Position numbers and translations under genes: made by a program
Origin: Myxococcota bacterium
GTDB taxonomy: Bacteria; Myxococcota_A; Bradymonadia; UBA7976; UBA1532
Direction of reading: 5' to 3'
Length of the DNA stretch: 64,000 nucleotides
NCBI GenBank assembly: GCA_963169045.1
Contig: CAUJDF010000039.1
Coordinates: 62,001-126,000, forward strand
Notes under the pieces: generated by a model
Seen by the model: only the letters and a program-made list of their open reading frames with translations
Databases searched by the model: none
What the model was told of the DNA's origin: nothing
Shown: piece by piece, positions 42,397 through 54,429 of the stretch
Layout: every line of letters starts with the position of its first letter
Position numbering within the stretch: position 1 is the stretch's first letter

Positions 42397-43353
42397 GTGT
42401 CGCTGCCCCTCGTCGCCCTGCTCGCCTCGGCCGCGGCGCCGTTCCCGTCCGAGACGCCGCCGCGCATGGTGGACGTGCCCTGCGCGGTCTCGCTGCAGTC
42501 CGCCATCGACCGGCTGCACGGCGCCTACCCCGATGGCGGCGCCCTGCGACTCGCGGCGGACTGCACCTGGAAGGCGGATCTGCGGCTGCGCGGCGAGCGC
42601 CCGCTGGCGCTGATCGGCGGCGAGGGGAGCCGCATCGTGGGGCGCGTCGTGTTCGACGGCGAGGCGCCGGTGACGATCCGCAACCTCACGATCGAGGGGC
42701 CACTCACGCCGCTGGTGGTCCGTGGCGCCGGCCCGCTCACGCTCGACGGCGTCACGATCCGAAGCGGCGACGACGGGGTACACGTGCAGGGGAGCGGCAC
42801 GGTGTTCCTCCGCGCGAGCGAGGTCGTGGCGGCGTCGACAGGCCTGTGGGTCGAGGACGCCGCCGGGTTGCGCATCCTCGGCGGCGCCATCCGGGCGGGC
42901 GAGCAGGCGCTCGTCGTGCGCGGGACCACCGGCCCCGTGCGCCTCGCGGACGCGCACGTCGAGGTCGGCCCGGCCAGCCCGGCGCCGGCGGCGGTCCGCA
43001 TCGACGGCGCCGGGCCGGTGGAGGTGCTGGGCAACGTCTTCGTGCACCAGCCCGACGGCACGAACGAGGCGGCGGTGGTCCTCGACCTCGCCACTGCCGG
43101 CGTCGTCGCCGAGAACGACTTCCGCACAGGCGCGCTGGCCGTCCGGACGCACCGGCCGCTGAGCCTCGGCTGCAATCGCTTCCAGACGCTCGTCCACACC
43201 GTGGACGGACCCGCGGAGCGCGTCTGCGCCCGCGACCTCGCCCCGGACCGCCTCGACTGGCGCGCGCGCGTCGGCGGGCCCGACGTGACCGCCTGCCTCG
43301 CCGCCTTCGAGGTCGGCGTCTGCCCGGACTTCAGCGCCGCCGTTCGCGATTAG
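42397..43353 (+). CDS. Secreted beta-helix repeat protein
   Basis: A 318-residue protein starting at GTG with GGAGG seven bases before it. A short signal (LPLVALLASAAA) is followed by a pectate-lyase-like start (LQSAIDRLHGAYPDGGALRL) and a right-handed beta-helix with regular strand repeats (VTIRNLTIEG, LTLDGVTIRSGDDGVHV, VEVLGNVFVH). GDDGVHV is typical of polygalacturonase/pectate-lyase folds, but no catalytic set is clear. Six Cys are present. The stop codon is two bases from a repeat element. Confidence 0.82.
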   Translation: MSLPLVALLASAAAPFPSETPPRMVDVPCAVSLQSAIDRLHGAYPDGGALRLAADCTWKADLRLRGERPLALIGGEGSRIVGRVVFDGEAPVTIRNLTIEGPLTPLVVRGAGPLTLDGVTIRSGDDGVHVQGSGTVFLRASEVVAASTGLWVEDAAGLRILGGAIRAGEQALVVRGTTGPVRLADAHVEVGPASPAPAAVRIDGAGPVEVLGNVFVHQPDGTNEAAVVLDLATAGVVAENDFRTGALAVRTHRPLSLGCNRFQTLVHTVDGPAERVCARDLAPDRLDWRARVGGPDVTACLAAFEVGVCPDFSAAVRD

Positions 43354-43354
43354 C

Positions 43355-43597
43355 CTCGAGTCTCGCCATTTTCGGCTGCCTGCGGCCGGCCCCGACCGGC
43401 CGCCGCAGCTCGCTCCCACAGGCGAAGCCGCCGTCTTGCGGTGGCGAGTCTGCCCGAAGGGGTCGGTCGCCTCGCTGCGCGCGGCGCATTTCGGTCTCGA
43501 CGTGCATCAAGCACGCCTTCCACCAAGATTCGCCTTGCTCCTTGCTGCGACTCGGTCGTTGCTCGGCCTCGCCGACGCCGAAACGGCGAAACTCGAG
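43355..43597. mobile_element. MITE-like element A, copy 1 (243 bp)
   Basis: It is bounded by CTCGAG palindromes inside imperfect terminal inverted repeats (left CTCGAGTCTCGCCAT; right GGCGAAACTCGAG). It shares long blocks with copy 2 at 52276: GGCTGCCTGCGGCCGGCC, GCGGCGCATTTCGGTCTC, CGTGCATCAAGCACGCC and CGACTCGGTCGTTGCTCGGC. Relative to copy 2 it carries about 66 extra bases after the first block. It has no ORF of its own and fills the gap between two convergent genes. Confidence 0.75.
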
Positions 43598-50495: not shown

Positions 50496-51433
50496 GACGC
50501 GCCCTGCCGATGCTCGTGGCGTTGCTGGCGCCGTCGGCGCACGCGTGGACGCCGCTGCGCGCCGCCGACGAGACGCCGCTGCGCTGGCCCGCCGAGGCGT
50601 GGCCGCTGGCGCTCGTCGACGACGACGCCCCCGCGTGGAGCCGCGCCGCCGCCACCTGGACGCAGCTCGGCCCGGCGGCGTTCTCGCCGGTGGCGGGCGG
50701 GGGGGCCGTCTCCCTCGAGCGCGTCGCCGAGGCGGCGACCTGGGCGGCCCGCGTCGGGGATCCGGCGCTGGTGGCCTTCACCCTCGTCGAGCACGCCCAA
50801 GGCGAGCTTCGCCGCGCGGACGTGCTGCTCAACGCGGCCCGCTTCCGGTTCGCGGATCCGCCGGCCACGCGCGCGTTCGACCTCGAGGCCGTGCTCGTCC
50901 ACGAGCTGGGTCATGCGCTCGGACTCGGGCACAGCTGCGGCCCCGACGCGGAGGCCGGCTGCTTCGATCTCGAGTCCGACGATCCGCGCCGCGCGGCGGT
51001 CATGGCCCCCCAGGTGGCGCCGGGTCCAGGGCGACGCCGGCCGAACGACGATGACCTCACCGGCCTCGAGGCCGTCGCCGAGGGCGTGACGCTGCGGCGG
51101 CCGGCGCTGCGCGCCGTCGCGTCCGACGGACGCTCCGCCTGGACGCTCGTCGTCGACGGCCTCGCGCCGGGCGACCTGGTGCGGGCGCGGCGCGGCGCGG
51201 TGGTGGCCGCCCGGATCACCGTGGAGGCGGGCCGCGCGCGCATCGAGAGCGACGCCGCGCCGCCGCTCGACGTCGAGGTATGGACGACGGCGGGCCAGGG
51301 GTTGTACGCCCCCGGCGTGCTGTCGGTCGAGGGGGCAGACGAGGCCGACGCCGGGGCGGACGGGTGCGCCGCCGTCCCCGGCGGGTGGATCTGGCTGGGT
51401 GCGGGCATGCGGGTCAGGAGGCGGCGGCGATGA
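50492..51433 (+). CDS. Matrixin-like metalloprotease, possible MYXO-CTERM tail
   Basis: About 313 residues. The zinc motif HELGHALGLGH (His137, His141, His147 from the chosen start) and the Met-turn VMAP are those of matrixin/reprolysin-like metzincins. I chose the CTG at 50492, which overlaps the upstream stop (CTGA) and yields a normal signal peptide (RRALPMLVALLAPSAHA); the ATG at 50510 would leave a very short, uncharged signal. The C-terminus (GADGC, WIWLGAG, then RRRRR) looks like a degenerate MYXO-CTERM sorting tail. The stop overlaps the next ATG (ATGA). Confidence 0.82.
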   Translation: MRRALPMLVALLAPSAHAWTPLRAADETPLRWPAEAWPLALVDDDAPAWSRAAATWTQLGPAAFSPVAGGGAVSLERVAEAATWAARVGDPALVAFTLVEHAQGELRRADVLLNAARFRFADPPATRAFDLEAVLVHELGHALGLGHSCGPDAEAGCFDLESDDPRRAAVMAPQVAPGPGRRRPNDDDLTGLEAVAEGVTLRRPALRAVASDGRSAWTLVVDGLAPGDLVRARRGAVVAARITVEAGRARIESDAAPPLDVEVWTTAGQGLYAPGVLSVEGADEADAGADGCAAVPGGWIWLGAGMRVRRRRR

Positions 51434-52239
51434 GGCGGGCGCAGGTGCTGTTTGTTTGGGCCGCGGTCGGCGCGTCCGTCCCGGCGGCGGCCTACGTGCG
51501 CTCCCGCAGCGACGGCGGTGCGCCGCTCGCGTGGGGCCGGCGCTGTCTGCCGTTCTGGATCAACGAGCGCGGCAGCGCGGATCTCGGCGGCTTCGCCGTG
51601 GCCGAGGACGCCACGCGGAAGTCGTTCCAGGCCTGGGCGGACGTTGCCTGCTCCGACCTCGAGTTCCCCTACCAGGGGTCGACTGACATCGACGAGGTGG
51701 GCATCGACTTCCGCAACGTCATCGTGTGGCGCGACGAGGCCGGATCGTGGTCGCACCCGCGCGGCGTCATCGCCCTGACGACCACCACCTTCTGCACGAA
51801 GCCCGACGGCAACCAGTGCGACGTCGCCGGGCGCATCCTCGACGCCGACATCGAGATGAACGGCGTCGACTACGACTTCACGCACACGAGCAACCCGCTG
51901 CGCACCCGCTTCGACGCGCGCAACACGTTGACCCACGAGATCGGGCACTTCATCGGCCTCGACCACACGCCGGTGCCCGAGGCCACGATGTACGACGAGG
52001 CGCCGCGCGGCGAGACGGCGAAGGCGTCGCTGCACCCGGACGACATCCAGGGGATGTGCGACATCTACCCGAGCGAGGCGGAGCCGGGGCCGTGCGAGCC
52101 GATCCCCGATCCCGCCGACCTGACGGGCGGCCGCGCCGACGACGGCGGCTGTGAGGCGGCGGGCGGCGTCGGCGGTCCGGGCGCCCTCGCGCTCCTGGCG
52201 GCCACGGCCCTCGCGCGCCGGCGGCGTCGTCCGGCTTGA
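51430..52239 (+). CDS. Matrixin-like metalloprotease with MYXO-CTERM tail
   Basis: A 269-residue secreted zinc protease. Signal peptide RRAQVLFVWAAVGASVPAAA; zinc motif HEIGHFIGLDH (His169, His173, His179) and Met-turn in ATMYDEAP. Cys residues near the N-terminal half suggest disulfides. The last 35 residues (DGGC, then Gly-rich, then ALALLAATALARRRRR) match the MYXO-CTERM surface-sorting signal. Its ATG overlaps the upstream protease stop (ATGA), so the two proteases are co-translated. Confidence 0.92.
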   Translation: MRRAQVLFVWAAVGASVPAAAYVRSRSDGGAPLAWGRRCLPFWINERGSADLGGFAVAEDATRKSFQAWADVACSDLEFPYQGSTDIDEVGIDFRNVIVWRDEAGSWSHPRGVIALTTTTFCTKPDGNQCDVAGRILDADIEMNGVDYDFTHTSNPLRTRFDARNTLTHEIGHFIGLDHTPVPEATMYDEAPRGETAKASLHPDDIQGMCDIYPSEAEPGPCEPIPDPADLTGGRADDGGCEAAGGVGGPGALALLAATALARRRRRPA

Positions 52240-52275
52240 GCCCGGCGCCCGGGCGGTCCGGGGGCGCCTCTCAGA

Positions 52276-52452
52276 CTCGAGTTTCGCCATCACCGGCTGC
52301 CTGCGGCCGGCCCCGACCGGCCGCCGCTGCGTCGCGCGGCGCATTTCGGTCTCGCCGTGCATCAAGCACGCCTTCGACCGGAATTCGCCTTGCTCGTTGC
52401 TGCGACTCGGTCGTTGCTCGGCCTCGTCGACGCCGAAATGGCGAAACTCGAG
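52276..52452. mobile_element. MITE-like element A, copy 2 (177 bp)
   Basis: It has perfect 15-base terminal inverted repeats CTCGAGTTTCGCCAT (52276-52290) and ATGGCGAAACTCGAG (52438-52452), flanked on both sides by TCAGA (52271-52275 and 52453-52457), a possible 5-base target-site duplication. Internal blocks match copy 1 at 43355, including the hairpin-forming CGTGCATCAAGCACG. No protein is encoded. It lies after the second matrixin gene. Confidence 0.8.
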
Positions 52453-52454
52453 TC

Positions 52455-52665
52455 AGAGGGTCGGCGGAGATGAGCCGCCGGCTGCGAGGCCGCCTTCCAG
52501 GGCGCTCCCCGCCGGGATTCCTCGAGACGAGCTCGACGGGCCTCTTGGCCCGCCTTCGCTCGGCTCTCCGGTGCCGCTTGACGCTGCGCCGTGGACCGGT
52601 CGCCTTCGGCTCCCTGCGCTCCCGGCTGACGGCCTCTCGCTCGGCGTCTGTCTCCGCCGACCCTC

Positions 52666-52666
<1 letters not shown>
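52455..52666. mobile_element. Palindrome-ended element B (212 bp)
   Basis: It is bounded by perfect 16-base inverted repeats AGAGGGTCGGCGGAGA (52455-52470) and TCTCCGCCGACCCTCT (52651-52666), with a different interior from element A. It directly abuts element A copy 2. Its right end touches the stop codon (52666-52668) of the leftward MopE-related lipoprotein gene, so it forms that gene's immediate 3' region; the inverted ends could fold in the mRNA and serve as terminator or stabiliser. No second copy was seen in the window. Confidence 0.6.

Positions 52667-54429
<1,763 letters not shown>

Follow-up and report, generated by a model that had tools for sequence, protein, structure and literature searches.

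What is the palindrome-ended sequence that lies against the stop codon of a lipoprotein-like gene with MopE metal-binding motifs (PF11617), in a 64,000-nucleotide stretch of a Myxococcota genome (hereafter the window)? A first-pass annotation had described perfect 16-base inverted repeats around 180 bases of unrelated sequence, and had suggested either a mobile element different from the neighbouring element A or a large 3′ UTR structure. The perfectly complementary arms are present as described (AGAGGGTCGGCGGAGA at 52455-52470 and TCTCCGCCGACCCTCT at 52651-52666), and one end does touch the MopE-motif gene at its stop codon. Comparison with other copies indicates that the element proper, which we call element B, is 210 bp long, starts with GAGGG and ends with CCCTC. 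Its terminal inverted repeat (TIR) accounts for 15 bp of each 16-base arm, and the remaining outermost base (A on the left, T on the right) comes from a duplicated TCA found on both sides of the element. The right-hand TCA provides the minus-strand gene with its TGA stop codon (Table 1). The interior, by contrast with its earlier description as unrelated, mostly continues the palindrome, such that the whole unit is one long imperfect hairpin, with a predicted RNA fold of -143.6 kcal/mol (z -7.4) and a predicted DNA fold of z -4.7. Because about 0.04 perfect 16-base pairs at a spacing of 150-300 bases are expected by chance per window (a base-composition estimate that assumes 72% GC), the single pair is only suggestive, and it is the copies elsewhere in the genome that decide what B is.

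Table 1 Features at the element B locus (window coordinates).
Feature	Position	Strand	Remarks
Element B, 210 bp, putative MITE, TIR GAGGGTCGGCGGAGA	52456..52665		dispersed copies, TIR, duplicated TCA/TGA
Left TIR of element B, 15 bp	52456..52470	+	
Right TIR of element B, 15 bp	52651..52665	-	
Right copy of B's 3-bp target duplication (TCA), the TGA stop codon of the MopE-motif gene	52666..52668	-	
TCA bordering B's left end, copied again at the landing of element A	52453..52455		
MopE-motif (PF11617) lipoprotein-like gene, insertion in stop codon	52666..54429	-	
Neighbouring convergent gene, matrixin-like peptidase M10 (PF00413)	51430..52239	+	
Element A copy, TIR CTCGAGTTTCGCC, different family, 5-bp duplication TCTGA/TCAGA	52276..52452		
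TCAGA, left duplication of A: TCA as B's original left duplication, GA duplicating B's first two bases	52271..52275		inference
TCAGA, right duplication of A, overlapping B's first two bases	52453..52457		

Copies of element B and related families

The genome that contains the window (9.0 Mb in 109 contigs, completeness 95%) holds 36 occurrences of the 16-mer with at most two mismatches, compared to three for a reversed control pattern. A whole-element search of the same genome returned eight other copies of B, of 156-202 bp and 87-91% identity, together with several fragments; copies and fragments elsewhere in this genome number about a dozen (84-93% identity), genome-wide counts being search-based and long repeats probably missing from the assembly. 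The first-pass annotation had asked for such a search, and had held that either a lack of any other copy or the same sequence downstream of every orthologue of the gene would tell against a mobile element. Copies exist, and they adjoin unrelated genes, mostly with TGA or TCA flanks. Among the aligned copies the TIR varies and small indels are present, and the window copy is the only one of those with both ends readable to have a perfect 15-bp TIR.

A sister family (B2), which has B's TIR and a different interior, occurs in the same genome and in Loclat_bin-06019, a MAG of an uncultured Myxococcales, and there are minimal copies of 27 bp, about 31 bp and 56 bp with little beyond the TIRs. Family C (GAGGGTGTTCCCATG) has only GAGGG and the target in common with B. 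We note that families C and D (CAGCGGCGGGCG), both palindrome-ended and TGA-flanked, are found nested with A and B (L112-L141, L117, L127 and L013), no transposase for C or D having been found, and that three loci (L021, L123 and L134) appear to join a B-type end to a C-type interior or other end; these apparent hybrids suggest recombination or end exchange between the families. Pieces of 32-36 bases from B's interior, at 89-91% identity, are present in a genome of another family (L070, L072 and L073 in G056), and in G011, from a different genus of the window genome's own family, two apparently convergent genes have a related degenerate element between their stop codons (L071/L089). Matches to the TIR among genome contigs of Streptomyces, Acidobacteria and Anaerolineae look like chance or coding matches, and a TIR search of viral contigs returned none.

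Transposons with the same ends

Searching Loclat with the TIR led to a 1,647-bp unit (G057/G009) that has TGA on both sides and ends in GAGGGTCGGCGGAATTATC and GAGGCTCGGCGCTAATT, the first 14 bp of the TIR GAGGGTCGGCGGAATTATC being the common end of B and B2. This unit encodes a protein of about 526 residues that matches nearly the whole NCBIfam IS1182 model (NF033551; E=6.8e-76) and carries the Pfam domain DDE_Tnp_1_6 (68 bits against a threshold of 25.1). Since its IS1182 score of 256 bits is below the curated cut-off of 270 bits, we refer to the transposase as IS1182-type, a divergent relative rather than a member of the family. A homologue that is 70% identical was found in the window's own genome by protein search alone (C85:17805-19480; 1,676 bp, TGA on both sides); its ends, GAGGATCGGCCAGAATAT and GAGGGTCGGCCAGAATTG (TIRs GAGG[A/G]TCGGCCAGAAT), match B over the outer 10 bp only (9/10 on the left). 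A third transposon of the same type, in G002, is divided between two contigs, and plasmid-borne relatives of the transposase share only some 25% identity with it. The transposase frame in G009 and G002 reaches the last base of the element, so that the duplicated TGA serves as its stop codon; in the own-genome copy the frame stops about 40 bp before the element end. That copy is inserted at the TGA of the last repeat of a CRISPR-like array, which is not a stop codon. The CRISPR-like array itself (L150:30-1005, contig C85) comprises 14 repeats (GTATCCCCAGGCATGAACCTGGGGCTCCATTGAAGC).

Element B is short and without a transposase gene, is present in multiple dispersed copies, and shares 10-14 terminal bp with IS1182-type transposons in three genomes. 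These are properties of MITEs, and we infer that an IS1182-type transposase moves B.

TGA targets and stop codons

We compared the outside base triplet at 61 distinct B- or C-type ends, drawn from the own genome, two relatives and a few unrelated chance matches in other bacteria, and found TGA at 27 and TCA at 25 (together 52/61). Elements with two intact ends have the same triplet on either side in direct orientation (TGA..TGA or TCA..TCA), which fits target duplication. Consistent with this notion, one gene that ends in a 27-bp Loclat copy has an orthologue in G002 (87% identical) with the TGA stop and no element, an empty site. This sole empty site concerns a 27-bp relative of B, in another genus, and downstream of the stop the two sequences have diverged; three of the four Loclat insertions yielded no orthologous site in G002.

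For an outside TGA to be scored as a genuine gene's stop codon, it had to end a frame open for at least 100 codons in which GC was highest at codon position 3 (at least 85%) and lowest at position 2, a simple GC-by-codon-position rule. This was so for 17 of 22 independent TGA-side ends, a set that omits ends abutting other elements, autonomous copies and one unrelated match; the 17 include one degenerate single end (contig C102) and one that ends in TAA. The corresponding pass rates in the window were 4.1% for all TGA, 28% for TGA outside called genes and 50% for CTGA outside called genes, giving p about 3e-6 against non-coding TGA and about 0.008 against non-coding CTGA, values that treat the sites as independent and depend on a simple gene caller. 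Because half of the window's non-coding CTGA sites are themselves stop codons, the latter excess is modest, and most of the enrichment at stop codons is attributable to the (C)TGA target together with the loss of insertions inside genes. The elements do reside in stop codons; with an excess that is strong against TGA generally and modest against CTGA, a genuine bias of insertion towards stop codons may exist but is not proven.

Taken together, the dispersed copies, the TIRs, the target duplication, the empty site in a relative and the same-ended transposons support the earlier suggestion of a different mobile element, and we consider it very likely (probability about 0.87) that B is a non-autonomous MITE of an IS1182-type transposon that duplicates TGA and survives in stop codons. 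The IS1182-type transposase encoded by transposons of about 1.65 kb with the same ends (GAGGGTCGGC...) would recognise the 14-15 bp TIRs, insert B at TGA trinucleotides (in most cases CTGA) and duplicate these three bases. If the TGA is a stop codon, one copy would stay in frame and leave the host protein unchanged, so such insertions would survive and many copies would end up at stop codons. Every insertion would also leave ...CCCTC-TGA, a fresh TGA (and TCTGA) site; with the site regenerated each time, further elements could land there and short arrays would form. Among six further element-end junctions in the own genome, five are joined by just TGA/TCA or TCTGA/TCAGA, as expected if every insertion recreates a target.

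The window locus may illustrate this succession. The first-pass annotation had placed B as wedged between element A and the stop codon; the position is right, and the implied history is probably reversed. In the five copies of element A with both ends readable the 5-bp duplication is TCTGA/TCAGA, and at this locus A's TCAGA includes B's first two bases. Had A arrived before B, TCAGC, which is found today past the stop codon, would be expected as the left copy of A's duplication. That copy is TCAGA instead, which suggests that B landed first, in the stop codon, creating a TCA-GA junction into which A later inserted. A degenerate copy of element A is also found at 43352-43597 of the window, between two convergent genes and near both of their stop codons.

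Alternatives and known systems

The favoured reading has to be weighed against the possibility that stop codons are targeted directly, with the transposase, or a link with the termination of translation or the ends of transcripts, preferring the TGA of gene ends. Both stop-codon comparisons lean this way, as does the use of the target's TGA as the transposase's own stop in two genomes. IS1272/TnSha1, an IS1182-family element of staphylococci with 16-bp TIRs, often inserts at the 3′ ends of genes and at terminator hairpins (PMC4923244, PMC5678879), and the updated IS1272 has no stop codon within the element (PMC4923244). We nevertheless regard direct targeting as a tentative and rather unlikely alternative, as a (C)TGA preference with selection against coding insertions accounts for the greater part of the excess, the autonomous copy of the own genome lies within a CRISPR repeat, and 5 of the 22 ends are not stop codons. 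IS1272 itself raises another mechanism, replacement of an existing hairpin without target duplication (PMC5678879, PMC4923244), and the own-genome transposon does lie just after the hairpin of a CRISPR repeat. That hairpin is intact, however, the single, diverged empty site in G002 shows no sign of a hairpin that was replaced, and 52 of 61 ends are flanked by TGA or TCA, in direct repeat where both ends are intact, a duplication that the IS1272 mechanism lacks, making hairpin replacement very improbable here.

By position, B also becomes a large hairpin in the 3′ UTR of the MopE-motif gene, which keeps its stop codon and gains this predicted structure, and to that extent the annotation's other suggestion holds. 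It is a different matter to regard B as a conserved 3′ UTR regulatory or terminator element of this gene. An RNA hairpin of such high predicted stability, placed immediately downstream of the stop codon, would suit such a role, but B's sequence also follows unrelated genes as dispersed copies with target duplications, and position 11 of the TIR, which is variable, differs in several copies on one arm with no compensating change on the other. In addition, a terminator scan of the region found no U-tract after the hairpin, as an intrinsic terminator would have, and an Rfam scan of the region gave no match, and we give this reading very little credence. Equally implausible is an origin of B as a MITE of an IS5-family element. 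IS5-family members of the IS1031/IS427 type also duplicate TNA, and there is an IS5-like transposase in the own genome, but the IS5-like element ends in GGGCGTGTTTGGCAACC, unlike B (one element was read, in an incomplete genome), and the transposase of the transposons that have B-type ends is IS1182-type. The IS5-like element (L076:1160-2030, contig C2) has a two-frame transposase, and a copy of element A comes immediately after it.

REP/BIME sequences and REPINs are, like B, dispersed palindromes at the 3′ ends of genes; they are not known to make target duplications or to share their ends with a DDE transposon, and membership of B among them is unlikely given the target duplications. IS870 of Agrobacterium vitis has a transposase stop codon formed by its target site (CTAG), as the partner transposon of B appears to have with a different target. 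With IS1272 the elements described here share an IS1182-type transposase and, in G009 and G002, a transposase frame without an internal stop codon; IS1272, in contrast, deletes its target hairpin, has no sequence preference and makes no duplication, whereas here 3 bp are duplicated at a fixed trinucleotide, TGA. B resembles bacterial MITEs such as the Correia elements, RUP, ERIC and MITEAba12, which are short and non-coding, have TIRs and target duplications and depend on a same-ended transposon acting in trans, and which differ in transposase family and in the duplication made. The words 'stop codon' and 'IS1182' do not occur in a 2024 review of prokaryotic MITEs, and our search of the open-access literature found no description of MITEs resident in stop codons.

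The kind of element is therefore known, and what appears to be new, judging from the open-access literature, is an IS1182-type MITE that duplicates TGA and often resides in stop codons. It is possible, though unlikely, that these parts make up a whole system centred on TGA stops, with a stop-borrowing transposase, a preference for host stop codons, MITEs that act as portable hairpin 3′ UTRs, and arrays built by site regeneration. Occupying a stop codon and returning a copy of it would be a harmless lifestyle for mobile DNA in a gene-dense genome, and it offers a concrete case for asking whether a transposase aims at stop codons or whether selection alone gives that appearance. IS1182-type elements would thereby gain a sequence-specific, duplicating mode of target use that is unlike the hairpin replacement of IS1272.
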